Virus record (IMG/VR): IMGVR_UViG_3300028831_000041
Location: 1-52,634 of that record
Origin: a virus
Strand: one strand, 5' to 3'
Length of the DNA: 52,634 nucleotides
A program made the position numbers and the translations under genes. This document shows, one piece after another, positions 7,008-52,634 of the stretch. Below the pieces are notes generated by a model. The model ran no database searches and was not told the DNA's origin. It saw only the letters and a program-made list of their open reading frames with translations. Numbering within the stretch: the first letter of the stretch is position 1; every line of letters begins with the position of its first letter.

Positions 7008-7215
7008 ATTGTTCTGCTATATGCATAGCTTCTTTTTGTTTGTCAGAGAGGAATGTAGGTTGTTCTAACTTTCGTTTACCATGTCTCATAATGGGTTTCT
7101 CTGCCATCTCAGGACGAGTAATCTTTAAAAGTGGTGAGAACCATTCTTCTATTTGTTTCTGAGTAAGAGATTCCCATTGTTCTACAGGACATTCAAGAAG
7201 TTGTTCTATTGTCAT
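6985..7215 (-). CDS. hypothetical protein (76 aa)
   Basis: The frame is open to 7242, but the ATG at 7215-7213 overlaps the upstream stop as ATGA and has AAGGA just upstream, so it is preferred. The product is helical and Gln/Glu-rich, with a short Pro-containing segment (LLKITRPEMAEKPIMRHGKR). Function unknown. Confidence 0.6.
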   Translation of the reverse strand: MTIEQLLECPVEQWESLTQKQIEEWFSPLLKITRPEMAEKPIMRHGKRKLEQPTFLSDKQKEAMHIAEQYGFKLKF

Positions 7216-7826
7216 TCCTTGATTAGTTTGATTTCGTTGCACTTAATGTTATACATAATATCATTGAGACTAAACAATGTAATCTCAATATCTTCTATCT
7301 CCTCAGGTGACAATGCAAGATTCTTCATATGTAGAACATCTCCAGATTGAGAATTCTTAATGAAGATTTCTATCTTAGATTTCCATTCCTCAGAATTAGT
7401 ATTAGATAGAGTTTGTGCCTTAAAGCCTTCTGGTGTTCCATCTAGTATATTTCTATCTATATCAAGATGAATACCAACACCACGCTTCTTATGTATGTGA
7501 AGTGATTCACAGAATAGAGAATACTTACCATCAGGATCAAGTTTATCTAGTAAGTATTTTTTTGCTTGAAAGAGTTTATTGTAGAGAGTATTACTATTTA
7601 GTCCTGGATGATCCTTATAGAAGATGACTCTGTTTTCACCATCAGCAATCATTTGATCTAGTATTATCTTTATCTCTGCTGCATATTTTGCTCTATAATA
7701 TGGTGCATTAGCAAGACGTGACCAATGCTGAGGTCTATGTTTCTCAAGAGATTGTTTAATCTTAATCTGAGTCTCCTTATCAGATATAAGACCAGTCAAA
7801 GTATCTACTAATTTTTGTTCGTCCAT
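7212..7826 (-). CDS. hypothetical protein (204 aa)
   Basis: Helical N-terminal half (residues 1-75) with an HRPQHWSRLANAPYYRAKYAAE segment split by an aromatic patch. The middle has VIFYKDHPGLNSNTLYNKL, which could be a helix-turn-helix-like DNA contact, and the C-terminal half is mixed alpha/beta. No known family recognised. It starts 2 nt before the next upstream gene ends, in the operon between nuclease and co-chaperonin genes. Confidence 0.6.
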   Translation of the reverse strand: MDEQKLVDTLTGLISDKETQIKIKQSLEKHRPQHWSRLANAPYYRAKYAAEIKIILDQMIADGENRVIFYKDHPGLNSNTLYNKLFQAKKYLLDKLDPDGKYSLFCESLHIHKKRGVGIHLDIDRNILDGTPEGFKAQTLSNTNSEEWKSKIEIFIKNSQSGDVLHMKNLALSPEEIEDIEITLFSLNDIMYNIKCNEIKLIKE

Positions 7827-8432: not shown

Positions 8433-8723
8433 TTAAGCAGAGGCAGGAAATTTCTTAAGAGCATAAATATCTTCTCCATCAAACACAGTTAATTCTGTTC
8501 CATTTGGTTCCCATGATAGTTTTGTTCCTAAGTGACAAGGCACATATACTATGTCATATATACTTACTTCGTTTTTATAACGAAACTTTGAACCAACATG
8601 AAACACTTCAGCTTCCACTAATTGTATTCTTCTGTCTTGTGCTATCTCTGGTATTACTATTGTAGAGGATTCTATCTTTTGTTTTTTTACTTCCACTATT
8701 AGAATATCTCCCAATGCTTTCAT
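8433..8723 (-). CDS. GroES-like co-chaperonin
   Basis: The 96-residue product has the GroES layout: MKALGDILIVEV opening strand, a mobile-loop region (about residues 13-30) with the hydrophobic TIVIP tip that docks on GroEL, a YDIVYVPCHLGTK strand and the closing GEDIYALKKF. It would replace or supplement host GroES in folding phage proteins such as capsid, as T4 gp31 does. A sigma-54-type promoter lies about 40 nt upstream of the ATG, separating its control from the AAA+ activator gene next to it. Sequence is diverged, so the call rests on pattern and length. Confidence 0.78.
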   Translation of the reverse strand: MKALGDILIVEVKKQKIESSTIVIPEIAQDRRIQLVEAEVFHVGSKFRYKNEVSIYDIVYVPCHLGTKLSWEPNGTELTVFDGEDIYALKKFPASA

Positions 8724-8763: not shown

Positions 8764-8779
8764 AGCAGGTTTCGTGCCA
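8764..8779 (-). promoter_or_regulatory. sigma-54-type promoter (groES-like gene)
   Basis: Minus strand TGGCACGAAACCTGCT: a perfect TGGCAC -24 box and CTGC -12 box with GG and GC in the required phase. Predicted start near 8753, giving a leader of about 30 nt to the co-chaperonin ATG. It is the only intergenic stretch here. Confidence 0.75.
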
Positions 8780-8792
8780 GGATATATACATA

Positions 8793-8984
8793 TTAATTTT
8801 TTATTTTGTTTACAGTTTTACGAAACATTACTTCTATTTGATCATCTGGTCTGTTTATTGCTATTATATATACGTTACCACGACAAAATTCTATCCACAC
8901 AGCAGGATTATCTATTACAACATCTGCCGGTATTCCTAAACCAGACATTCTTTCAACTACTTTATCATATAATTCTTTATTCAT
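8793..8984 (-). CDS. hypothetical protein (63 aa)
   Basis: Begins in ATGA overlap with the AAA+ activator gene and ends just before the promoter of the co-chaperonin gene. The sequence has a helix (YDKVVERMSGLGIPADVV) followed by strands (AVWIEFCRGNVYIIAINR), a small alpha/beta protein. Coupled to the activator gene, it could modulate it, but nothing in the sequence proves this. Confidence 0.6.
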   Translation of the reverse strand: MNKELYDKVVERMSGLGIPADVVIDNPAVWIEFCRGNVYIIAINRPDDQIEVMFRKTVNKIKN

Positions 8985-9853
8985 ATAGGTAATACTCCTA
9001 ATATCTTATGTCTCTTTACATGTTGTTCTAGTGAACGAACATTTAGTTTTGTATCAAGACCTTTATCTCGTAGATTATATGTTACATTATTTTTAAGTAC
9101 TTCAAGAAATTCTTTACCACCATTCATTGACAGAATAATTGGTTCTATATCTTCTGGTCTTTCATCTAGAGGTGTAGTATATATCTCGAATGTACTTATC
9201 CTTGCATATAGATCGAGACGAAAGAGATTCTTATCACACAGAGCTTCAAGATCTTTATTGGTTGCACATACAAATCTACAATCTATTTCTTCTTCACTCA
9301 GGGAACCAACCTTCATAATTTTCTTCTCTTGTAATGCTCTAAGAAATTTACCTTGTGAGTGCATGGGTAATTCTCCAACTTCATCAAGAAAAAATGTTCC
9401 ACCTTTAGCAGCCTTCATAAGACCATCTCTATCTCGTTCTGCTCCAGTGAATGATCCTTTAGTAGAACCAAATAGAATAGACTCTACAAGTGCTTCAGGT
9501 AATCCTGCACAATTCTGTGCAACAAATCTTCCCTCTCTATTACCATGAAATGCTCTTGCCAATATTTCTTTTCCTGTTCCAGTAGGACCACTAATAAGTA
9601 CTGGTTCATTTAGTGGTGCCAATTTAGCAACATTTTGTTTCTCCTTAATCATAGATTCATTCACAGTAATGAATCTACTTAGCCAAGCTTCTGTTGTATT
9701 AGAAAAATCTATAATACGACAATCTTCTCGCTTCCAAGGTAATTTATTGTCTTTGATTATTCTATCTATCTGTTGCTTTGCTAACTCAAGAACTTGTGGA
9801 TCTTTTTGATTGAGTGCCAACTCTAAATCTTCTTTACGAATTTCTTGGCTCAT
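8981..9853 (-). CDS. stand-alone sigma-54-activator AAA+ domain (bEBP-like, no receiver or HTH)
   Basis: Central domain of a bacterial enhancer-binding protein: Walker A GPTGTGKE (89-96), sigma-54-contacting loop GSFTGA (133-138; canonical GAFTGA, with the essential F and T kept), and Walker B GGTFFLDEVGE (151-161). CATNKDL is sensor I, FRLDLYARIS (211-220) holds the arginine-finger block and NVRSLE (271-276) is the sensor II region. The family remodels RpoN-RNA polymerase closed complexes using ATP. The first 75 residues are unrelated to response regulators, and the protein ends 14 residues after sensor II with no helix-turn-helix. It would therefore act from solution, as reported for DNA-binding-domain-less FlgR or CtcC. 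Matching -24/-12 sites occur throughout this genome. Confidence 0.9.
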   Translation of the reverse strand: MSQEIRKEDLELALNQKDPQVLELAKQQIDRIIKDNKLPWKREDCRIIDFSNTTEAWLSRFITVNESMIKEKQNVAKLAPLNEPVLISGPTGTGKEILARAFHGNREGRFVAQNCAGLPEALVESILFGSTKGSFTGAERDRDGLMKAAKGGTFFLDEVGELPMHSQGKFLRALQEKKIMKVGSLSEEEIDCRFVCATNKDLEALCDKNLFRLDLYARISTFEIYTTPLDERPEDIEPIILSMNGGKEFLEVLKNNVTYNLRDKGLDTKLNVRSLEQHVKRHKILGVLPI

Positions 9854-10428: not shown

Positions 10429-12612
10429 TTATTTTCCATTTTCTGTTGTATCTATATCACCTAGTATTTCTTCATCTTCTTCTGTGATAGGTTCTTTCTC
10501 CTCATAAGTATATCCTCCCATGATTATACCTTCCCAAGATTCTTTTTGTTGTACTACCTTTGAGAGACACTTTAATTTCATTGAGACAACTTGAGCAACT
10601 TGTTCTTCAATGGTGCCTGCAAAGAATATTAATTGCTGGGTTGTATCCGACAATGATGTAAGTCTTGGAAATCTACCTAGACCTTGCACCATTTCAATAG
10701 CACTCCATGTTGGTGCTATAAATGACTTACGAGGTCTAGTAAGTATTTTTGAAATATCTTCTTCATAAGCATATCCACTTTCTTTATGTCTGACTTTTTC
10801 TTGACTAAATTCGTCTGTGTGATGTAGTGATAATCCAACACCTCCTGCCCTAAACGTATAGAAACAATACAATGAATCTCCTTTTTGAAATCTATCAATT
10901 TCATTTTGTCTTTCTTTTAATGTTTGTATCCCTAATTTAAGTGTTTCATCATCAAATGATTCTTCTACTTTTGCTTCTACATCTTCAAGAGATAACATAT
11001 CCATTGTGATGCCAGCTTCTTCTAGTGCTTTTAGAAGATCATCTGATCCTTCTATTGCTGCTTTTGTTTTTTGTTTTTCTGTTGCTTTTGTTTGTCCACC
11101 TCCCCAGATTATACTTATCTTCTCTCTAGGAATCTTATAATCTTCACAAAGCATCCTAATACATTTTCGTATTGTAACTTTAAAGTTGACTGCACATCCA
11201 GCAGCATATCCATTATTGGTAGCATTTACCATTTGTTCACACAAGTATTTTATACGATCTGGATTAGATTCTGCTGCTATACGATACTGTAACATTGCTA
11301 CCAATATACAGACATTCTTCTGTCCAGCATTAATTAGTCCTTTTGCTTCCTTTGCTTCTGCTTTAGATTTCTTCTTTAGAAATTCTTCAATAGCTTTATC
11401 ATAGAATTCTTTTCCTTCTTTTGTTTGAAAGTCTATAAGAAGAACAGAATTCTTAGCATGAAATTGTGGCTTAACTCCTTTCACACGTACTATGAAATCA
11501 TTCATTACATCCATTAAACGTTCCATTGCTCCAGGAGAATGTTCGTAGGGATTTGCTGGTGATGCTACATATTCTGCGAAAGTCTTCCAATGTTTATTCT
11601 CTAATTCACATTCTATAAGTGTAGCTTTTGTATTTCTGATGCGTGTTGCCACACAAAAGCACTTTGCTTCTGAAACTTTTGTGAATGGTGTAGCACTTAG
11701 AAAAATTTGATAAGTGTTAGGAAGTTCATTGAATGAAGCTGCTATCTTTGCTTGTTGTGTTCCTTCATTCTTCAGAGCTTGACATTCATCCCAAGCTATA
11801 AAACACGGATTAATCATTGGTCGCCAAGACCATTGTGTGTATTCCATGCCATGTTCTATCTTCAGTTTTTCATCTACAAATAGTTCACCAAACTTAGAAC
11901 GTAATTGATCTATATTAATAACAAGAATATCTTGTGGATGCCTTAGACCAAAAAATTTTTCAAATACTCGTTTTGTTTGTTCTACTACACTAGCCTTTGT
12001 TACGTAAATATAGGGCCAAGGTGCAATAGAACCAACTTTAGTATGCCAGTTTGATTCTCTTAGTCTAGCTATGACCGCACCCATTATGAATGTTTTACCA
12101 TAGCCTGCATTAGCTATTAGGAGCTGACCACGTTTATTATCATTTGTAATACCACTTAATAATTCACGGGCTGCTTTATGTTGAAACCAAAATAAGAAAG
12201 ACTTGTCTTTAGAACAGAATGGTAACTTATAATGTTTCTCTAAATTAATTGATGTATCTATTACAGTTGATAAAGGTTCTTCTGTAAAGATTAACTTAGG
12301 TGTTTCTGATTGTTTTAATAAAGCTTTTTCCTCGTCAGTAAGCTTAATAACTGGAGGATTATTCTTTAACCAAATAGAAGTCTCAAGTTCGATCTCCCTA
12401 TCTTTAAGCCATTCTTTTATTTCATTAAAGGAAATCTTCTCCCCATACTCATGTGGAAAATATTTTTGTTTTATCTGCTCATCACTGTAGCCAACTATTC
12501 GTAGTAGATCATAGAAAGTTTGAATCTTTCCAAAAGTGTAAGCAATTTTAATGCGCTGTGAGATTACCTTTAGATGATCTCTTGCTTTTCTATTCTCCTC
12601 TATGTTTGTCAT
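10429..12612 (-). CDS. SF2 (SNF2-type) helicase/ATPase
   Basis: Walker A ANAGYGKT (167-174), a DEAD-box-type WDECQ (about residue 275), motif III SATPFT, and a C-terminal RecA lobe with FYTFRAGGVGLSLHH and a QGLGRFPRL motif VI-like arginine segment followed by GTIEEQVAQ. This is the motif order of SNF2-like SF2 enzymes, which translocate on duplex DNA. The 727-residue length is large for a phage helicase; the N-terminal 140 residues and an insert with VEESFDDETL are family-specific. Likely roles are replication or recombination DNA unwinding, or DNA remodelling. Confidence 0.85.
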   Translation of the reverse strand: MTNIEENRKARDHLKVISQRIKIAYTFGKIQTFYDLLRIVGYSDEQIKQKYFPHEYGEKISFNEIKEWLKDREIELETSIWLKNNPPVIKLTDEEKALLKQSETPKLIFTEEPLSTVIDTSINLEKHYKLPFCSKDKSFLFWFQHKAARELLSGITNDNKRGQLLIANAGYGKTFIMGAVIARLRESNWHTKVGSIAPWPYIYVTKASVVEQTKRVFEKFFGLRHPQDILVINIDQLRSKFGELFVDEKLKIEHGMEYTQWSWRPMINPCFIAWDECQALKNEGTQQAKIAASFNELPNTYQIFLSATPFTKVSEAKCFCVATRIRNTKATLIECELENKHWKTFAEYVASPANPYEHSPGAMERLMDVMNDFIVRVKGVKPQFHAKNSVLLIDFQTKEGKEFYDKAIEEFLKKKSKAEAKEAKGLINAGQKNVCILVAMLQYRIAAESNPDRIKYLCEQMVNATNNGYAAGCAVNFKVTIRKCIRMLCEDYKIPREKISIIWGGGQTKATEKQKTKAAIEGSDDLLKALEEAGITMDMLSLEDVEAKVEESFDDETLKLGIQTLKERQNEIDRFQKGDSLYCFYTFRAGGVGLSLHHTDEFSQEKVRHKESGYAYEEDISKILTRPRKSFIAPTWSAIEMVQGLGRFPRLTSLSDTTQQLIFFAGTIEEQVAQVVSMKLKCLSKVVQQKESWEGIIMGGYTYEEKEPITEEDEEILGDIDTTENGK

Positions 12613-13040
12613 TCAAGTATAATATTAAGTGTTTCACTAATTTTCTTTTTATCACCTTTAGAAATTATTTGAAGTGCAAGATTCCGCGCATCTTCTTTTG
12701 ATAGTCTTAGCATAGATTGTATCTTATGCGCGATGCTATCATAATTGTGATTGAATTTAATGCTGGAAACTTTTGCTTGCTTCCATCTTGCATGATCCTG
12801 TTTCCAATATTGTAGTCGCCATAGACGAGGCTTTTCAAATTTGATAGTCTGTTTCTCATTACCATCAGAATCTAGATCGTGTTCATAATATTGAATATGA
12901 TACGATAGTGGAAATTCTGGAACACATTCTAGTAAAGTTGCTTGCCACAATTCTATTTCGACATGATCATAATCTTTTAGAAGCAATTTTATATAATGAG
13001 CAAAGGGAATTGTTATATTACTTTCATGTTTTCCTTCCAT
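12609..13040 (-). CDS. hypothetical protein (143 aa)
   Basis: The frame is open to 13091, but its first 17 codons are the arm of a strong hairpin (13059-13092), so the ATG at 13040 (MEGKHESNITIPFAHYIKLL) is chosen. The end has a helix-rich region (LSKEDARNLALQIISKGDKKKI) that could be a small helix-turn-helix. It overlaps the helicase start by 4 nt and may be a helicase partner or DNA-binding protein; unproved. Confidence 0.62.
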   Translation of the reverse strand: MEGKHESNITIPFAHYIKLLLKDYDHVEIELWQATLLECVPEFPLSYHIQYYEHDLDSDGNEKQTIKFEKPRLWRLQYWKQDHARWKQAKVSSIKFNHNYDSIAHKIQSMLRLSKEDARNLALQIISKGDKKKISETLNIILE

Positions 13041-13058
13041 AAGATTAGAAAATAAGGA

Positions 13059-13092
13059 AGTGCTCCGTATATATTGTGATATACGGAGCACT
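13059..13092 (-). terminator. strong hairpin, likely terminator of the 13116-13706 unit
   Basis: Perfect 14-bp inverted repeat: AGTGCTCCGTATAT (13059-13072), 6-nt loop, ATATACGGAGCACT (13079-13092). It lies 23 nt beyond the stop of the 196-residue gene. Downstream on the minus strand the sequence is CTTCCTTATTTTC, a weak U-tract, so it may partly attenuate rather than stop transcription into the helicase operon. Confidence 0.7.
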
Positions 13093-13115
13093 TTTGTGCT
13101 ATATTCTAGTAAGTG

Positions 13116-13706
13116 TTATGCTAGAACCTTAACTCCAGCAGCAGTAGTAGGAGTAGGCTTTTCTGGTTCTTCTTCCTTAGTCTTTTGCTTCAGAATAAGC
13201 TGCTCTTGACAATACTTGATCCGCTCAGCAATTTCTTTGAACTTTGCTTTCTGAGCTTCTGGATCAGTAATAGTTCCAGAAAGAATAATGTTCTTGAATT
13301 CTTCCTGAAGATTACTAAGTTCTTCTCGCAATGATGCCATCGTTTCACCGCGTGCACTGAAGTTAGCAAGACCATCAAGGAAATCCTTAACCGAAAATGC
13401 CTTAGTAGGATCAGTCTGCTTCTCATCAATACTGGACTTAGTGATATTAACACTAGTCTGTGCTACCTTCTGATATGCCAGTTCTAGCACTTGATCAAGA
13501 CCAATCCAAGCAAGGAATTTTTGTTTTCCTTCCTCATCTTTTGGTTTGATAGGCTTCAATGCGAATCTATCAGGAGAATCCTTTTCCAATTTTCTAGTAG
13601 AACTGGCTTCACATGGCCATTCAATTCCATTCCTTGTAGAGATTACACTATCTGGAATGATTGCCTCGATTTTCTTTCCGTCAATTTCTTCGATTGTTTT
13701 TGGCAT
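13116..13706 (-). CDS. hypothetical protein, own sigma-54 promoter (196 aa)
   Basis: A soluble protein with a charged N-terminal third, a coiled coil near residues 120-170 (ASLREELSNLQEEFKN; KAKFKEIAERIKYCQEQL) and a Pro/Thr-rich tail (EKPTPTTAAG). By eye its codons are richer in C/G at third positions than neighbouring genes, as in highly expressed phage proteins. It sits alone between a sigma-54-type promoter at 13864 and the hairpin at 13059, so it is probably an abundant product. No family recognised. Confidence 0.75.
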   Translation of the reverse strand: MPKTIEEIDGKKIEAIIPDSVISTRNGIEWPCEASSTRKLEKDSPDRFALKPIKPKDEEGKQKFLAWIGLDQVLELAYQKVAQTSVNITKSSIDEKQTDPTKAFSVKDFLDGLANFSARGETMASLREELSNLQEEFKNIILSGTITDPEAQKAKFKEIAERIKYCQEQLILKQKTKEEEPEKPTPTTAAGVKVLA

Positions 13707-13862: not shown

Positions 13863-13878
13863 AGCATGGAACGTGCCA
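13863..13878 (-). promoter_or_regulatory. sigma-54-type promoter
   Basis: Minus strand TGGCACGTTCCATGCT: consensus -24 box, TGC -12 box, correct phase between GG and GC. Predicted start near 13852 and a leader of about 146 nt to the ATG at 13706. It lies immediately after the stop of the 39-residue gene. Confidence 0.75.
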
Positions 13879-16325: not shown

Positions 16326-17600
16326 TCAAATGGAAAACTTTCCGCAATTCTGGAGTATATTAGCCTTCACATCATTGTCAATAAGTTGAAAGATACTTTT
16401 CTCAGCAATCTGTTCAGCAGTAGATTTACCTTGTTTAATAAAGGCTGCTCCACGTCTTATTGCTCGTGTTGTTATGTAAATTGTTCCTGCACAATATTCA
16501 TTACAATATTGTCGCACTCTATGACAATATGTTGACCATTCTATATTACCTGTCATCTGTATTGAAATATCGTGCTCAATGTGTTCATCATAGAAGATCT
16601 CATGCATCGTAAATCTATTGAGCGTAGATGCATCAATCTTATTTCGTATAAAGCCACGTGTACTACCAGTGCCCTTTGTATTATCTGCAACTACAAGATA
16701 GAAATCCTTGTGACGCTCAATGGTTTCATTATTTCCAAACGTGTAGAACTTATTTTCAAGAGCATTACAAGCTCCAGTAATTACCATTGCATCACAAGCA
16801 CAAATTTCATCAATACACAATAGTCCACCATCTTTGTAAGCTTTATATGCAAGTCCAGGTATGAAACTTCCAGTAGCAATATTATTATAGCCAACAATCT
16901 TTCCTTCTGTAACTGTTGGTCCACCTTGAACTGGATACAACGGAACATTTAGTGCTTGTGCAAGATGCTCAAACATCATTGTTTTACCACAACCTGGCGC
17001 TCCATATAGGTAAAGAAATTCAGAATAGCCATTGCTGTTCCGTGCAGTAAGATCATTTACTATCTCAGGGACTTGATAATGATGCCTAGTTAGTGTAATC
17101 TTTTGTTCCTCAGAATCATACTTATGATTAACTATGAGAATCTCAACACGTTTCTTGGTTAATTGATCTCGAAGATCAACCAGTTCATTCTCGCGTTCTG
17201 AGATAGTATTGACTAACTTCTGATTCTCAAGATTTTCATTATTTAGTTTATTCTGAAGCTGATCTAGTTCATTCTTATATAGTTGTTCTAATTCTGAATC
17301 AAAAGCTTTATTTATAGTTTCTTGTGCAGGTTTAATTTCAGCATCCTGATTAATACAAAGTTCAAGAGCTGTTAAGACTTTACTATAATTATGAATTTTT
17401 GTAAGTATGTCAATGCTGAAATCATTATGATACGTCACTAATGATTTATGATTACTGCCAGCACAAATCTTCTCGATTGTCATTATGCGAGATTCTTCAT
17501 CAAGCTTTTGAATCTCTTTTGACAATCTAACAAATAGACCTGTTATATCAAATTTTGTTTTGGTTTGAGTTCCTGTTACTGAAGGAAATGTCTTGTGCAT
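16326..17600 (-). CDS. CobS/MoxR-like AAA+ ATPase
   Basis: A coiled coil at residues 95-155 precedes the AAA+ core. The core has Walker A GAPGCGKT (200-207), a DGGLLCIDEICACD Walker B near 250-262, VVADNTKGTGS as sensor I and FIRNKIDASTLNRF carrying the arginine finger. CobS/MoxR members remodel or insert metal into partner proteins; phage versions are common but their substrates are unknown. The 16080 and 15190 genes, directly downstream, are probable partners. A sigma-54-type promoter lies about 50-65 nt upstream of the ATG. Confidence 0.85.
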   Translation of the reverse strand: MHKTFPSVTGTQTKTKFDITGLFVRLSKEIQKLDEESRIMTIEKICAGSNHKSLVTYHNDFSIDILTKIHNYSKVLTALELCINQDAEIKPAQETINKAFDSELEQLYKNELDQLQNKLNNENLENQKLVNTISERENELVDLRDQLTKKRVEILIVNHKYDSEEQKITLTRHHYQVPEIVNDLTARNSNGYSEFLYLYGAPGCGKTMMFEHLAQALNVPLYPVQGGPTVTEGKIVGYNNIATGSFIPGLAYKAYKDGGLLCIDEICACDAMVITGACNALENKFYTFGNNETIERHKDFYLVVADNTKGTGSTRGFIRNKIDASTLNRFTMHEIFYDEHIEHDISIQMTGNIEWSTYCHRVRQYCNEYCAGTIYITTRAIRRGAAFIKQGKSTAEQIAEKSIFQLIDNDVKANILQNCGKFSI

Positions 17601-17651: not shown

Positions 17652-17667
17652 AGCAAAAATCGTGCCA
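17652..17667 (-). promoter_or_regulatory. sigma-54-type promoter (CobS-like operon)
   Basis: Minus strand TGGCACGATTTTTGCT is an exact match to TGGCAC-N5-TTGC. Predicted start near 17641, with about 40 nt of leader before the AAA+ ATG. It lies in the only gap (17601-17701) between that gene and its neighbour. Confidence 0.8.
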
Positions 17668-17701
17668 GCAATATATACTAACACGAGCTTTGATTTATTT
17701 C

Positions 17702-19556: not shown

Positions 19557-19909
19557 GTAGTATGCCAGTGTCTCATTTTTAGAGTCTAACAATGATACAT
19601 GCATAAGTCATTGATTATCAATGAATTAGACTGTCCTATTCGTGGAAGTCTGTTTTGTGGACAATAGTTGACTAGTCATCTACTACGCTTCGCTGGCAAG
19701 TCAAGCGTCTTTGTTTTACTTTGTATTGCAGAGTAATCTGTATCAGAAAGTAGCTTGTGATACAAAGTAGAGAACCGATGTCCAGAAAAAGATTCGAGCG
19801 CCTGCACATATACTCTCTCACAAAATTCCCAAAATCAATTACCCCTATCTCTATATACCTACAATCCTCCACTAAAAGTATAATCTAGAACAACACTATT
19901 AAACAAAGT

Positions 19910-19925
19910 TGGCACAATTCTTGCT
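19910..19925 (+). promoter_or_regulatory. sigma-54-type promoter of the late (rightward) block
   Basis: TGGCACAATTCTTGCT preceded by T, a textbook TTGGCAC-N5-TTGC match. GG at 19911-19912 and GC at 19923-19924 place the start near 19936, next to the first late ATG (19938). Confidence 0.85.
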
Positions 19926-19937
19926 GTCACAACCTTG

Positions 19938-20126
19938 ATGAATAGTATTGCAACTAAAAAACTTGACTCTATTAAATTTGAGGAACAAGAAGAACATTTT
20001 CGCATTAGACAAATTATTGAGTCAACAGGGCTTTACAGTTTGTTAAAGTCCACAGAAAAACTGACAGATGAGGAATTTGATAAAGAATTTACTGTGTTGC
20101 ACAAAGTTGCTAACATTACTGAGTAA
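19938..20126 (+). CDS. first late gene, hypothetical (62 aa), possibly leaderless
   Basis: ATG at 19938 (a TTG lies just before). The product is helical: KFEEQEEHFRIRQIIEST and LKSTEKLTDEEFDKEFTVL. No ribosome-binding site is visible upstream. The predicted sigma-54 start is at about 19936, so the mRNA would be nearly leaderless. Followed by a small hairpin (20131-20151). Function unknown. Confidence 0.6.
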   Translation: MNSIATKKLDSIKFEEQEEHFRIRQIIESTGLYSLLKSTEKLTDEEFDKEFTVLHKVANITE

Positions 20127-20130
20127 GAAG

Positions 20131-20151
20131 TATCATAGCTGTTCTATGATA
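20131..20151 (+). other. short hairpin after first late gene
   Basis: TATCATAG, CTGTT loop, CTATGATA: an 8-bp perfect stem 4 nt after the stop codon. No U-tract follows, so it more likely stabilises or processes the mRNA than terminates it. Confidence 0.45.
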
Positions 20152-20217
20152 TTAAACAAATCGGTTACTTTGCTATTACTCATGTGATTGAGTGCAACAC
20201 AGTATTAAACTTACAAT

Positions 20218-20337
20218 ATGAACTTTTTACGAAAACAAAACTTCTTTAGACCATTTCTAAATGAAGGTATGACAGATTGGGGTGCTCTTATGGTAGCTTG
20301 GTATGGATTTGTGAATGATGCACAGCCAAAGGATTAA
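20218..20337 (+). CDS. small hypothetical protein (39 aa)
   Basis: ATG at 20218, TAA at 20335. Basic start (MNFLRKQNFFRPF), then a Trp-rich segment (MTDWGALMVAWYGFVNDA). Ends 17 nt before the terminase small-subunit-like ATG. Short, but the composition looks coding. Confidence 0.5.
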   Translation: MNFLRKQNFFRPFLNEGMTDWGALMVAWYGFVNDAQPKD

Positions 20338-20354
20338 CATAGGAGATTATTCCT

Positions 20355-20768
20355 ATGACAGCAGCAAATCAACAAATTGTAACAGCATTTGAGGAATTAA
20401 ATCTAACTCCTGAGCAAATCTCAGAAGCATTTGGATTTAATATTCTTGCTGTCAAGTCTGTTCTTTCTCAGTTCTCCTCTAAATTTAAAAGCGCGGTTAA
20501 ATCATCTAAGAATTCTGGATTTACAGATGATGAAGCTGAAGAAATGTATTCCATCATTCTTAATCTTGCACGATATAGTGATGATGAAAATCTTCAGTAT
20601 AAAGCTGCATGTCGTATCATAGATGATAAAAAGGGGCGGCTCGACATTGTAAATAATCAGCCAGGATTGCAAATCAATGTAGTAACATTTAATGAGCAGA
20701 TGCAAAAAGCTCTAAATGCAGAAAGACGTACACTTGAGATAAAAGATGTGGAGGAAGTAGCAGCGTGA
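20355..20768 (+). CDS. putative terminase small subunit
   Basis: 137 residues with an N-terminal helix-turn-helix-like segment (LTPEQISEAFGFNILAVKSVL) and a helical, acidic middle (TDDEAEEMYSIILNLARYSDDENLQYKAACRII), the usual layout of phage TerS, which binds the packaging site. GGAGAT precedes the ATG at good spacing. The large terminase subunit gene follows after two tiny genes. Call is by position and shape. Confidence 0.65.
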   Translation: MTAANQQIVTAFEELNLTPEQISEAFGFNILAVKSVLSQFSSKFKSAVKSSKNSGFTDDEAEEMYSIILNLARYSDDENLQYKAACRIIDDKKGRLDIVNNQPGLQINVVTFNEQMQKALNAERRTLEIKDVEEVAA

Positions 20769-20997: not shown

Positions 20998-22716
20998 ATG
21001 GAAAATCAAGTATCAACACTTATCAAGGAGGTGAGGCTAACTCCATCTTTGGTTGACGCTTCTTCTAATAACAAAGGTAATGCTGAGAAAGATTTTCCAT
21101 CTTCTTTTTTATATGATGGTGATAGAGTAGATAATACTCCTCCGCCAACAGGAGAATATCAGAAGTTCGAGTTTCCTAATCCCTTCATTCTAGTTTGCTT
21201 CTTCGATAAATCAATAGCAGATGGTTATGTGACACTTCATCCTTGGCAACGTGATGTCAATGTAGAACTTGCAGAGGCGAAACCTACATCTAAGAATCCA
21301 TGTAAATACGTTCTTCTTGCTAATAATGGCTCAGGAAAAGATAAATTCATAATAGCACCCTTCTCAGTTTGGTTCACACTAACAAAGATTCGTAGTCGCA
21401 TCATTATTACTACTTCATCTGGTGTTCAACTTACTTCTCAAACAGAGCCATATATTAAAGATCTGTGTGAAAAAGTAAATGCACATTTTGGCCAAGAAGT
21501 CTATCGTATAAGACAACGCTACATTAAGTGCATACTTACTGGTTCAGAAATAAGAATGTTTGCAACTGATGAGAAAGGGAAGGCAGAAGGTTATCATCCA
21601 ATAGATGCACACTCTGAGATGGCAATTATTGTAAATGAAGGAAAGAGCGTAACAGAAGATATACATGAAGCTCTACGAAGATGCACTGGTTTCAATTATT
21701 GGATAGAAGTATCATCTGCTGGAGAACCTAAAGGCTTCCTTTATAAAGCAGTAACAGATCCGCGCTTTGGATTTAAGAACAAAAGAATAACATCATACCA
21801 ATGTCCACATCTCAATAAAAATGAAATAGAAACTGATAAACTTGATCTTGGAGAGCATTCTGCTTTCTTTCGTTCTAAGCATCTATCACTATTCACTTCA
21901 ATAGGCGGACAATCAATCATACCCCTAGAATTAATACAACAACTTTTAGATAATCCTCCAGTTCATCAATTTCAGCATTGGCCAAAAAGAGTGGGTATTG
22001 ATCTTGCTGCTGGTGGTGATGAAAATGTAATTTGTATCACACAAGGCAACTATGTAGTAAAAGAAATCTGGTTTCGTGAAACAGATACAACTGTTGCTGC
22101 TATGCGCATTTTCCAGATACTACATGATGAGAAGATAGATAAAAATAGTGAACATATCTATGCTGATGATGGTGGAATAGGTAGAGGTATCATAGATCAA
22201 GTTAATGCTTTTGGATATAATATCAATCGTGTAATGAATCAATGGGCGGCGCTTGGAGATAAAAAACAATTTGGTAATAGAGGAGCATCTAATTGGTTTC
22301 GTGTGAAACGGATACTAGAGGAAAAACTGTTTGATATTTCAGGACTTTCTAAGATTACGCTAGATCAACTTAGTCAGCGCAATTATAAACAAACTCTAAC
22401 TGGTGGACGAATATTTCTTGAAGCAAAGAAAGAAGCTAAAGCACATGGCAGACTATCACCTGATAGAGCTGATGCATTTATACTTTCCCTAACAGGACTT
22501 ACAGTTGAAGATTTTATGAAGAATGATAACAAAGAAGTAGAGACTGAGGCGCGGCAGCGAGGACAACTTCTACCAACACCTGATGCTGTACTTAATTGGT
22601 ATGAAGATAACGAGACGTACTCCAATTACTCAGACAAGATTTTTGATAGTAAACGTTCCAACGTAAAACGTTCCAACGTAAAACGTTCCCTTAAAGAGAC
22701 GCTCCTCAAAATATAA
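20998..22716 (+). CDS. terL: terminase large subunit
   Basis: Walker A-like LLANNGSGKD (residues 106-115) follows HPWQ, the usual adenine-contact entry of large terminases. The translocase strand RIIITTSSGVQL and an acidic VNEGKSVTEDI region follow. The nuclease lobe starts RVGIDLAAGGDENV (about residue 335) with IYADDGGIGRG and SPDRADAFILSL as its later acidic sites. The 572-residue size is normal. It packages DNA into the procapsid through the portal. The C-terminal tail contains a KRSNV tandem repeat. Confidence 0.92.
   Translation: MENQVSTLIKEVRLTPSLVDASSNNKGNAEKDFPSSFLYDGDRVDNTPPPTGEYQKFEFPNPFILVCFFDKSIADGYVTLHPWQRDVNVELAEAKPTSKNPCKYVLLANNGSGKDKFIIAPFSVWFTLTKIRSRIIITTSSGVQLTSQTEPYIKDLCEKVNAHFGQEVYRIRQRYIKCILTGSEIRMFATDEKGKAEGYHPIDAHSEMAIIVNEGKSVTEDIHEALRRCTGFNYWIEVSSAGEPKGFLYKAVTDPRFGFKNKRITSYQCPHLNKNEIETDKLDLGEHSAFFRSKHLSLFTSIGGQSIIPLELIQQLLDNPPVHQFQHWPKRVGIDLAAGGDENVICITQGNYVVKEIWFRETDTTVAAMRIFQILHDEKIDKNSEHIYADDGGIGRGIIDQVNAFGYNINRVMNQWAALGDKKQFGNRGASNWFRVKRILEEKLFDISGLSKITLDQLSQRNYKQTLTGGRIFLEAKKEAKAHGRLSPDRADAFILSLTGLTVEDFMKNDNKEVETEARQRGQLLPTPDAVLNWYEDNETYSNYSDKIFDSKRSNVKRSNVKRSLKETLLKI
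22651..22689 (+). repeat. 15-bp tandem repeat in terL tail
   Basis: AAACGTTCCAACGTA repeated twice and then 9 bases of a third copy. It encodes KRSNV-KRSNV-KRS. Each unit contains the palindrome AACGTT. Could be a packaging site or protein-length variation; not tested. Confidence 0.7.
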
Positions 22717-27143: not shown

Positions 27144-27159
27144 TGGCACGATTTAAGCT
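27144..27159 (+). promoter_or_regulatory. sigma-54-type promoter (capsid unit)
   Basis: TGGCACGATTTAAGCT: exact TGGCACG -24 box, GC in phase at the -12 box (AAGC rather than TTGC). It lies 3 nt beyond the exonuclease stop. Predicted start near 27170 gives a 126-nt capsid leader. Confidence 0.75.
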
Positions 27160-27295: not shown

Positions 27296-28630
27296 ATGCC
27301 GTTAGCACAAATTCCTGCGATTGATGCTAATGTCTGTTCTGGATGGACAGAACAAGATGTTAATCTATATAATCGCTTAGACTTCTATCTTGCAAAGATG
27401 CAGGTAGAACGTAGAAAAACATGGGTCACTTGGAATAAGTTTACTGGTAAACGCAAGTGGCAACCAAACATGGGTCCAACAATGCGAGCTGTTACGAAGG
27501 AACCTTCTCCACATATTCGTCAGTTTGCATTTCCAAATGAAATATCACAAGCTCCAAGGAAAGATGTGATGGATGTTAGGGAACGTAGAATTGATGAACA
27601 AGTTTACAGACATCGCTTTGAGAGTAATGTCTTAAATTTTGTACCATCATTTCGTGATTTTCTAACAGATCATGTTGATGCTTGTGGAAAAGATATTATG
27701 GAGAAACAAGAGCGTTTTGAGGATATATTTACTCGTGGACGTATCTTTCATCGTTCTCCTTATATTTGGGTAGTAGGTGCTGCTGTTGATGCAAATGGAG
27801 AAGCAGAACTTAAACATGCTCCAACAGGAATTGGTAATGCTGCTGGAACTGATGGTAAGACTACTGCTTTTCTACAACAGTTAGCTCCTCAAATTGGACC
27901 TGCTGGTAATCTAGGATTTCTCACACTTAACAAACTTGTTACTGCTGCTGAGAATGATATTAGAGCAGTTCCATTTAAAGGTTCAGATCTTCCAAAAGAG
28001 GATCAAGGAATGTCTAATCAATTCTGTCTTGTTTGCTCTTCTGAAGCATATAATCAATTTACATTTGATCCGTATCTTCAGGCAAATAAGAACTGTGCTC
28101 TTGATGTAGTAAATGATCGTTTTCGTGGTTCTTTGTTTGGTCGTATTACTTGTCTTATTGAGGATAGACCACTTAGAATGACTAAAGATGGAACATTTCC
28201 TGCTCCTGAAGTACGTGTTGTAGGTGCTAATCCAGCTCCGCCTAATGCTGGTCCTAATGCTTATGACAATATTGGTGAATCTATTCCAAATGTTGGTTAT
28301 TCATCTCTTGATGATAATAATGGTTGTCCTTACGAGATTGCATTTCTTGTTGGTGCAGAAGGATATGAACAATTAGAAGTTGGTCCTCCTCCTGCTGCAT
28401 TTGCTGGAAATGGTATGCCAAAAGGATTTGGTAAAATGTTTTGGAATGGTGAAGTTGAAATTACCAAGAACTTCCTTGTTCCTTGCTATGATGATGCTGG
28501 TAATCTAGTTTGGGAAACTAACCAATATGGCGAGTATCTTAAGTTCATCTCTCAAGTTACTTATGGACTTCTTACTAAGCAACCTCGTTTCATTATACCA
28601 ATTCTATTTAAGCGAAAGAGGGGTCAATAA
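27296..28630 (+). CDS. major capsid protein
   Basis: The 444-residue product has an N-arm ([17 protein letters not shown]), strongly conserved-looking core strands and a C-terminal strand region. It is placed behind a scaffold-like gene and driven by its own promoter-like element with a structured leader. A terminator-like hairpin closes the unit after one more gene, consistent with the highest-expressed virion protein. The fold was not verified, so HK97-type is only the default expectation. Confidence 0.72.
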
Positions 28631-28663: not shown

Positions 28664-29173
28664 ATGAAGAAACTACTTGTTATTGCTTCTCTACTTGGTC
28701 TTACATTGAATGTAGGTGCTGCTACCATTGCAACTAATATGCCAACAGCGGCATTGCACCTACTTTCAACTAATCGTGCATCTGTGTATAGTATTGAACT
28801 AACGTCAACAAATAGTGCTACAGTCTATCTTTATGATTGTGATCGTGTAGCATATTCAGCTACGGCTGGTAATTGTTGGGGTTATCAATACACAAATGCT
28901 TCCTACATTACAGTTGTTCAACAGCCCTCCACGAATGTACTAAATTATGTTGGCTATAATGGCTACACTAATTGGTACACTAATGTAGGTGCATCTGTTA
29001 CATTCAGTACTAATGCAATTGCTACCAATAATCTTCCCATAATTGGTGCATTTGCAATTGCTCCTAATACCTATGCTGTGTATAACACTGAAATGTTATT
29101 CTCGCGTGGTCTAATAGCAACATCTAGTGCTGCTAATGTTTCGATTGTAGTCAATTACAGGACTGCACAATAA
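28664..29173 (+). CDS. secreted or virion-associated protein with Sec signal (169 aa)
   Basis: N-terminal MKKLLVIASLLGLTLNVGAA is a textbook Sec signal peptide, cleaved near AA/TI. The mature part is rich in Asn, Thr, Ser and Tyr (GYNGYTNWYTNV). It is co-transcribed with the capsid gene and followed by a terminator, so it is probably abundant. It may be a head decoration or an exported protein; the signal peptide favours export or a periplasmic/outer-membrane role. Confidence 0.75.
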   Translation: MKKLLVIASLLGLTLNVGAATIATNMPTAALHLLSTNRASVYSIELTSTNSATVYLYDCDRVAYSATAGNCWGYQYTNASYITVVQQPSTNVLNYVGYNGYTNWYTNVGASVTFSTNAIATNNLPIIGAFAIAPNTYAVYNTEMLFSRGLIATSSAANVSIVVNYRTAQ

Positions 29174-50880: not shown

Positions 50881-51924
50881 TTAGTCTATAGACTTTAGAC
50901 CTTCTGGATTATTAACTGGATGAAATGGTGCCCAATTATTCCCTATAGCACCTTCTGATCTCATATAAAATTCTGCACCATCATAAGATGATTTTAATTT
51001 CTGTTCTATAAATTGTTTCATAATAATACAACAATCATTAGCTTCGTGGATGGGCGCCTGACATAAGATAGAGTCATGAGTATCTGCTAATATGTCCCAA
51101 TCCTTGCTATTGTTTTCTATAAACTCTTGCAAACCTGAAAGCGCAGTTCGTGTAATCATTGCTACTGTGGATTGTGGTATACAAGAGTAACATTCTTTTA
51201 AAGCGGATTCAGTTTCAAGATCACCAGTGAATGTAATTGGATTACCTAAGAGATTGTATAGTATGCGAGTGGACTTTACTTGTTGCTCTACGCGACTATG
51301 CCAATCTCGTATTTCAGGAAATAGTTCATGATACATTGTTAGAAATGTTTCTGCTTGATCTTTTCGTAAGACTACCTTACCTTTTGATTTCTCTAAGGTG
51401 TTTAAGCAGAACATACCCGCTTTAATTCCATAATTTGACGAATGACAAACTTGCTTGGCAATGTAATAAAATCGTCTCTGTGGTGGCCAATTATCAGATG
51501 ATTTAATAAGTTTGTCAATATCTTTCCACCAAGGATTCTTTTTTAGATCTTCTATTAGTGTTTGACAAAGTTCTTCAATATTGCATTTAATATCAAGCCC
51601 TTGCTTATCAATTTCACTTTGCCAAACTTCCTTAAATAAATGTAACCCAACGAAACAATGAGGTTTTATAACACATTCAAATAATTTGCGAAAATTACCA
51701 GGCTTACAAAGATAAGCAACAATAAGAGCTTCTGCCCCTGATTGGTCAACTTGTATAAGTGCTTTTCCTTCATCAGCGATATACATCTGGCGCATTGATT
51801 TCTCTTTGTTTTGTAGATTACCGCCATAAGTTTGAAAGATTGCTCTTGATGATAAACGAAAGAATTTGGTTCCTGAGATTACATAATTCGTAGAATCACG
51901 CGGTAAGCTTAATGAGTTGACCAT
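50881..51924 (-). CDS. split family A DNA polymerase, C-terminal piece (palm and fingers)
   Basis: Begins within the polymerase domain: YVISGTKFFRLSSR with a TGRLSS-like motif, GGNLQNK, then motif A LIQVDQSGAEAL (D60), motif B RRFYYIAKQVC...YG (K157, Y165) and motif C ADTHDSILC (H283, D284). The catalytic Asp residues are present, although motif C reads HDS rather than HDE. It has no exonuclease domain of its own. Together with the 1351-2919 gene it covers the whole of PolA. Confidence 0.9.
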   Translation of the reverse strand: MVNSLSLPRDSTNYVISGTKFFRLSSRAIFQTYGGNLQNKEKSMRQMYIADEGKALIQVDQSGAEALIVAYLCKPGNFRKLFECVIKPHCFVGLHLFKEVWQSEIDKQGLDIKCNIEELCQTLIEDLKKNPWWKDIDKLIKSSDNWPPQRRFYYIAKQVCHSSNYGIKAGMFCLNTLEKSKGKVVLRKDQAETFLTMYHELFPEIRDWHSRVEQQVKSTRILYNLLGNPITFTGDLETESALKECYSCIPQSTVAMITRTALSGLQEFIENNSKDWDILADTHDSILCQAPIHEANDCCIIMKQFIEQKLKSSYDGAEFYMRSEGAIGNNWAPFHPVNNPEGLKSID

Positions 51925-52310: not shown

Positions 52311-52566
52311 TTATGCACCATATAAAGGAAAGTTTAATCTTGCAAATTCTCCAAATAATTCTATTGCTTTATCATCATAAGCTATAGCTGCTTCTATCTC
52401 ATTTTTAAATAAACCAAGATGAATATGAATTTTTCTATCTTGAATATAAGCTCTAAACTTTCTTGACTTAGAGTGAAATCCTACTCCTTTATAGATTGAA
52501 GTAGTTCTACATAATCTTTTTTTACTATTTTGAAGATTTCTTCTATGATAACATAATCTTAGATTA
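52311..52566 (-). CDS. HNH-AP2 homing endonuclease, C-terminal part (gene cut by contig edge)
   Basis: Minus-strand reading from 52566 gives NLRLCYHRRNLQNSKK, the second half of the HNH motif, then TTSIYKGVGFHSKSRKF and an AP2-type DNA-binding tail ending AAIAYDDKAIELFGEFARL, stop at 52311-52313. Directly completes the fragment at 1-233. AP2 domains give sequence specificity to HNH enzymes. Confidence 0.9.
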
Positions 52567-52624
52567 AGATCGGAAGAGCGTCGTGTAGGGAAAGAGTGTA
52601 GATCTCGGTGGTCGCCGTATCATT
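52567..52624. other. Illumina adapter sequence (assembly artefact)
   Basis: Begins AGATCGGAAGAGCGTCGTGT and ends GTCGCCGTATCATT, matching the full 58-nt TruSeq universal adapter reverse complement. Not phage DNA. Confidence 0.97.
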
Positions 52625-52634
52625 AAAAAAAAAA
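52625..52634. other. poly-A tail (assembly artefact)
   Basis: Ten A residues after the adapter, as read-through beyond the fragment end typically gives. Should be trimmed with the adapter. Confidence 0.93.

Follow-up and report, generated by a model that had tools for sequence, protein, structure and literature searches.

A stand-alone phage sigma-54 activator and conserved predicted −24/−12 promoters suggest host sigma-54 use by a family of uncultured phages

Closed promoter complexes of the sigma-54 form of RNA polymerase (E-sigma-54) stay shut without the ATPase of a sigma-54 activator (bEBP). HTH domains and receiver, GAF or PAS domains are usual in bEBPs but not obligatory, and FlgR of Helicobacter naturally lacks a DNA-binding domain. 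CtcC of Chlamydia is another such natural bEBP, and activates sigma-54 promoters without enhancer binding of its own (PMC7482065), while the AAA+-only construct DctD250 acts from solution on many sigma-54 promoters with no enhancer present (PMC3844500). The phage protein described here resembles CtcC and FlgR in having no HTH, and resembles DctD250 and PspF(1-275) in being an isolated central domain with neither receiver nor HTH, for which constitutive and promiscuous activation from solution is expected. However, DctD250 and PspF(1-275) are engineered truncations of bacterial proteins, whereas the phage activator is encoded by a natural viral gene and comes with a set of predicted promoters of its own; CtcC and FlgR are cellular proteins that keep a kinase-controlled receiver, whereas the activator studied here is phage-borne and has none.

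Known ways in which phages seize host transcription include polymerases, sigma factors and anti-sigma factors of their own, as well as recruiting activators and antiterminators. The host polymerase is re-targeted, for instance, by gp55/gp33/gp45 and MotA/AsiA of T4, the sigma factors of SPO1, Ogr of P2, Mor and C of Mu, and Q of lambda. As in these systems, a virus product is predicted here to switch the host polymerase to middle or late genes, but they supply a sigma factor, a recruiting activator or an antiterminator, whereas in the present case host sigma-54 would recognise the promoter and the phage would provide only the ATP-driven opening step. Xp10 P7 (PMC5053324) and T7 Ocr (PMC7064336) are also phage proteins that act on host RNA polymerase, including its sigma-54 form, but both inhibit transcription, whereas the protein reported here is predicted to activate it. 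The sigma-54-related phage work found in the open-licence full-text literature concerned these two inhibitors, PspF, and prophage effects on host RtcR, and a description of a phage-encoded sigma-54 activator was not found there. The reading of the protein as an activator of host sigma-54 at phage promoters is largely supported by the sequence comparisons reported below, and a known protein family would then serve in a viral role that we have not seen described in the open-access literature. A single PHROG family, phrog_7998, matched the activator (E=7e-36), and it carries no functional annotation, as a sigma-54 activator or otherwise.

The window, i.e., the whole stretch of DNA analysed (52,634 nt), is a 52.6-kb linear virus record with 35% GC. 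The two genes on which the comparison was built are the following:

8981..9853, (−) strand: stand-alone sigma-54 activator (bEBP) AAA+ protein, 290 aa, ATG start, assigned by PF00158, AlphaFold (AF2), Foldseek and a PDB profile search
20998..22716, (+) strand: terminase large subunit, the query for relatives, assigned by a weak PF17289 match and by alignment with relatives

The preliminary description had read the 8981-9853 (−) frame as a complete bEBP central domain devoid of DNA-binding and receiver domains, and both parts of this reading held. The Sigma54_activat profile (PF00158) matched with 183.6 bits (E=3e-54) against a curated cut-off of 20.2 bits, over profile positions 3-167 of 168, and the domain scored above the cut-off in all 25 aligned members of the family. 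The protein consists of an N-terminal part of about 55 residues, an AAA+ core (approximately residues 60-240) and a short lid with sensor II at its end; the C-terminus lies 17 residues past R273. Domain searches detected no receiver, GAF, PAS or Fis-type HTH (HTH_8) domain in any of the 25 members. The residues required for ATP hydrolysis (Walker A and B, arginine finger, sensor II) are present in the 25-member alignment: G92, G94, K95 and E96 of Walker A, D157 and E158 of Walker B, R218, R273 (sensor II) and the threonine T136 of the loop do not vary, and R212 hardly does. The loop reads GSFTGA in the window, and G133, F135, G137 and A138 are conserved in at least 90% of the members; a few carry altered loops, GAFTDA (G032), GAYTGS (G031) and NSFTGA (G001), so not every member need be active.

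Structure prediction and an HMM search had been proposed among the checks of this assignment, and both placed the protein among sigma-54 activators. All of the top 50 Foldseek matches of the AF2 model (pLDDT 93) in the PDB were sigma-54 activators (best E 7.5e-24), the central domains of FleQ, NtrC4, FlrC and PspF among them. When the family profile was compared with the PDB, FleQ scored 264 bits, with NtrC, ZraR, PspF and other sigma-54 activators also matched, and the best match outside the bEBPs was Lon, with 51 bits. A placement with Clp, MCM, Lon or viral helicases, of which Clp, MCM and viral helicases had been named beforehand as the contrary outcome, is therefore ruled out.

Relatives were gathered by alignment of the terminase, which yielded 38 IMG/VR contigs; a scan with activator peptides alone had returned no close relatives. 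Each of the 26 terminase-found relatives of at least 45 kb carries one activator (26/26), the gene being cut by the contig ends in G033. These 26 relatives and the window make up the 27-genome set used below, whose shared core, as defined by gene clustering, comprises the terminase, the capsid and other structural genes, a helicase, a polymerase, a primase, an exonuclease and the activator. A second search, by alignment of the activator, gave 80 contigs, in which the protein was stand-alone and in a phage context except for four multidomain host-type proteins and one unresolved fragment; a stand-alone activator is present in at least 70 IMG/VR contigs. In a maximum-likelihood tree, which covered the closest bacterial activators of one phylum with limited bacterial sampling and contained long branches, the stand-alone phage proteins lay on one side of a branch supported at 100/100, and the bacterial activators and the four multidomain proteins on the other. 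The bacterial matches listed in that phylum (288 and 194 genomes drawn) had longer open frames, mostly of about 450-650 residues. The activators of a deeply diverged branch, group 2, are 235-243 aa long and lack even the short N-terminal extension, which is thus not essential to the core function.

No phage-encoded RpoN was found when the 27 genomes were searched for Sigma54_DBD, while the E. coli, B. subtilis, Caulobacter and Bacteroides controls were positive. Neither a search by capsid protein nor a megablast with the first 25 kb of the window revealed a related cultured phage. Most tblastn matches to the activator in the phage collection were rejected as relatives, as they fell in bacterial contigs deposited as phages: many INPHARED records, such as those of the CAKLQH/CAKLQF, AGRM, AFYI and OR84-OR85 series, are bacterial chromosome contigs that give spurious bEBP matches. 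The human gut phage MT121960 (MT121960.1) encodes a bEBP-like ORF of 304 aa (19770-20684), but its Walker A is degenerate (GETGTDKE) and it has no sigma-54 sites; it does not belong to the same system and possibly represents a separate or inactive use of such a protein.

A −24/−12 matrix was used to search the window for candidate sigma-54 promoters, of which the following were retained:

8764..8779, (−) strand: site P2, TGGCACGAAACCTGCT, score 20.2, also found de novo
13863..13878, (−) strand: site P1, TGGCACGTTCCATGCT, score 17.9, upstream of the gene run 13706->8981, in which the activator is last
17652..17667, (−) strand: TGGCACGATTTTTGCT, score 20.5 (highest of the window), 52 bp ahead of the AAA_5/phrog_249 gene
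19910..19925, (+) strand: TGGCACAATTCTTGCT, score 18.4, heading the rightward run of terminase and structural genes
27144..27159, (+) strand: sigma-54-like site P3, TGGCACGATTTAAGCT, with a degenerate −12 element, score 13.9, 136 bp upstream of the major capsid gene

The top four sites and the one at 27144 each lie upstream of a gene on the same strand. The sites at 8764, 19910 and 27144 had been pointed out before and are indeed there, the last of them weak in its −12 half; the strong sites at 17652 (−) and 13863 (−) were absent from that first reading. Five sites scored at least 16 (0.35 expected from shuffles) and 10 scored at least 14 (1.5 expected). The fifth site above 16, at 28729, is probably due to chance, as it is wrongly oriented within the capsid gene region. 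The P2 site immediately follows the activator gene, lies 41 bp ahead of a Cpn10-like gene, and overlaps only a spurious antisense ORF. Matches to a sigma-70-type consensus in the region were below the shuffled mean and were set aside. The −24 element of the 17652 site falls in one arm of an 11-pair inverted repeat (17660-17686, (−) strand).

Across the family, sites of this kind are strongly enriched, and we predict them to be sigma-54 promoters. In 31 records, 158 sites scored at least 15, compared with 19 in dinucleotide shuffles. The 27 genomes contained 146 matches to the matrix versus a mean of 8.9 (maximum 15) for 25 column-permuted matrices, and when only intergenic sites within 250 bp upstream of a same-strand gene were counted, the numbers were 67 versus 0.4 (maximum 3). 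Since the matrix had been modelled on the published consensus, an unbiased test was added, in which motifs were discovered by EM with no consensus supplied, in the 260 nt upstream of the capsid (family 4) gene and in the 400 nt downstream of the activator gene. The top motif upstream of the capsid gene was TTGGCAtga.a.tTGCTa (LLR 330 versus 67 in shuffles), and that downstream of the activator gene was tTGGCAcgaatctTGCTa (LLR 287 versus 72); together they can be summarised as TTGGCAYGA..TTGCTA. Both have the invariant GG and GC ten bases apart that define the −24/−12 class (TGGCACR-N4-TTGCW), in the form of TGGCAtga.a.tTGCT and TGGCAcgaatctTGCT, respectively.

Four phages related by the terminase only, which were not among the matches listed in the phage-collection search for the activator, had no upstream site in 149 kb, compared with about 2.4 per 50 kb in the activator-bearing family. 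One member, G023, has weak sites only. The relatives do not count as independent samples; this bears on p-values, but the de novo motif, the permuted-matrix control and the diverged group 2 are unaffected. The proposal of a genome-wide set of promoters matching the activator is thus borne out in the 27 genomes and in group 2 with permutation, shuffle, de novo and unrelated-phage controls.

The position of the sites relative to particular genes is also conserved. The genes concerned in the window are:

7212..7826, (−) strand: 204-aa gene with no assigned function (family 11), head of the replication block behind P2, defined by gene clustering
8433..8723, (−) strand: Cpn10/GroES-like co-chaperonin, the first gene under P2 in the window (PF00166, 27.4 bits, cut-off 21.1; phrog_3188, co-chaperonin GroES)
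10429..12612, (−) strand: superfamily 2 DNA helicase (family 0), a core gene present in 27/27 genomes and upstream in the activator run (PF04851, 2e-8; phrog_62, DNA helicase)
12609..13091, (−) strand: second gene of the activator run, 160 aa, no assigned function (family 19), defined by gene clustering
13116..13706, (−) strand: first gene behind P1, 196 aa, no assigned function (family 30), defined by gene clustering
16326..17600, (−) strand: AAA_5 ATPase under the 17652 site (PF07728, 1.4e-15; phrog_249, 6e-41, annotated 'porphyrin biosynthesis')
27296..28630, (+) strand: major capsid protein (HK97 fold), 444 aa, the P3 target (family 4), identified by AF2 and Foldseek

The capsid assignment comes from an AF2 model built on a 27-member alignment (pLDDT 71), for which Foldseek ranked the major capsid proteins of DEV, N4 and other phages highest (E=2.6e-10). 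A P3 site scoring at least 12.5 precedes this gene in 26 of the 27 genomes by automatic call and, in the 27th, falls just within an ORF start that is over-extended; its distance to the annotated capsid start is about 80-195 bp in essentially all 27. P2 was found within 500 bp behind the activator gene in 21/26 genomes and slightly further away in a few more, and leads into a replication block of families 11-15-9. The family 11 gene occurs in 25/27 genomes and in group 2, and is the next after the activator in nearly all relatives. P1 precedes a gene run of families 29/30-19-0-(21)-activator, with a site scoring at least 12.5 in 17 of the 21 relatives that possess the first gene. In group 2, a site is located 23-35 bp before the gene following the activator in 7/7 contigs and, in four contigs, 87-94 bp before a homologue of the capsid protein (1e-119 to 1e-126).

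DNA polymerase A is encoded by two genes in most of the family (families 8 and 16; 1351-2919 (−) and 50881-51924 (−) in the window), and by a single ORF in group-2 phages; in the window, a homing endonuclease lies between the halves. This HNH (VDHINGN) and AP2-like homing endonuclease gene is seemingly split between positions 1-250 (−) and approximately 52330-52566 (−), i.e., over both contig ends, suggesting a circularly permuted genome of which the contig covers nearly all. The last 68 bases of the window (52567-52634) resemble Illumina adapter read-through (AGATCGGAAGAGCGTCGTGTAGGGAAAGAGTGT... followed by poly-A) and are an assembly artefact.

Taken together, these data make it very likely that a minimal, AAA+-only phage bEBP opens phage promoters held by host E-sigma-54. 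In the mechanism that we propose, host RNA polymerase with host sigma-54 would sit on the phage −24/−12 promoters as closed complexes; the phage activator would hexamerise, its GSFTGA loop would contact sigma-54, and ATP hydrolysis would open the promoters. As E-sigma-54 depends on a bEBP ATPase and AAA+-only constructs work from solution, the phage protein most likely supplies this opening step. Having neither receiver nor DNA-binding domain, it would be expected to be constitutively active once made and to act mainly from solution, as the engineered DctD250 does. The operons turned on would be those behind P2 (into the replication block), P3 (major capsid) and P1 (the run ending in the activator), and further sites would serve the structural run (19910) and the AAA_5 gene (17652). 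As P1 heads the run at the end of which the activator lies, positive feedback is possible. A very stable hairpin of 15 bp (13058-13093, (−) strand, z=−9), which overlaps the annotated start of the 12609..13091 gene, separates the first P1 gene from the remainder of the activator run and may block or limit read-through to the activator, and hence the proposed feedback.

The solution mode has to be weighed against a split bEBP, in which a separate phage DNA-binding protein, bound ahead of the −24 element, would bring in or control the AAA+ ring, so that the activator is not free-acting. A search upstream of the sites found no universal enhancer motif, but it revealed a TTCTCA-N4-TGAGAA palindrome in one sub-clade of four relatives, G003 (L072-L074), G004 (L075-L077), G008 (L084-L086) and G010 (L087-L089), at a fixed spacing of 27-29 bp from the −24 element, or of 4 bp at three capsid promoters, with 25 matches scoring at least 12 upstream of sigma-54 sites against 2 expected. 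A DNA-bound partner or repressor thus probably also acts in this sub-clade, and activation may not be from solution alone. However, the palindrome is absent from the window and from the other relatives, its spacing is very short for a classical enhancer and would suit a repressor operator equally well, and no partner protein was identified; we regard the split arrangement as rather unlikely.

It could also be argued that host activators serve the phage promoters, since all but one of the genomes searched in the tentative host phylum have bEBPs of their own, and that the phage AAA+ protein, whose gene is located in the replication block, does another job, e.g., in replication or packaging. This seems improbable, as purifying selection has maintained the loop that contacts sigma-54 at about 45% identity, gene and promoters co-occur in every complete relative while the promoters are missing from the control phages that have no such gene, and the upstream regions share no enhancer-like motif outside the one sub-clade. 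Slightly less probable still is that the activator mainly switches on host sigma-54 genes (e.g., stress or transport genes) and that the phage promoters are a by-product: an AAA+-only bEBP is promiscuous, DctD250 having up-regulated 16 of 20 predicted Salmonella sigma-54 operons (PMC3844500), but this would not account for the strong phage promoters that keep their positions ahead of the capsid and replication genes. Activation of host sigma-54 genes may rather be a side effect. Finally, the adapter sequence at the contig end and the contamination of the public phage collection with bacterial contigs might suggest a bacterial bEBP gene in a chimeric assembly accompanied by chance promoter matches. 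The likelihood of such an artefact is negligible, and synteny across records already refutes it: in dozens of independent metagenome contigs, this gene has the same flanking genes, the activators form a phage group apart from bacterial bEBPs, and the promoter controls fall far below the observed counts.

The host is only weakly indicated as a member of the Verrucomicrobiota. Three MAG contigs carry related terminases; one was binned with Akkermansiaceae, a second belongs to a MAG drawing on the same phylum, and the nearest cultured terminases are those of Akkermansia phages (26-31%; 31% between the window terminase and annotated ones). The third contig, also of this phage family (L154, JACTVG010000014.1), was binned in an archaeal, Methanoregulaceae MAG, whose best activator match looks phage-type; this placement is most likely a binning error, and such binning is therefore unreliable for host assignment.

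In conclusion, opening of E-sigma-54 promoters by a phage-supplied activator would provide a tight off/on switch, the promoters being occupied but silent until the phage protein appears, and this phage family probably runs its infection programme via host sigma-54. If so, a further route of viral takeover would be added, AAA+-only sigma-54 activators would exist in natural form together with a defined set of promoters, and rpoN would be predicted to be a factor in the host range of a widespread, uncultured family of phages. We give about even chances to a broader reading, according to which the lineage is wired to host sigma-54 through an unregulated, self-amplifying activator that fires the replication and virion operons and also drives the host sigma-54 regulon. 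Were this to be the case, it would be the first phage group with an RpoN-dependent gene programme; infection would then require host rpoN, at which resistance might also arise.
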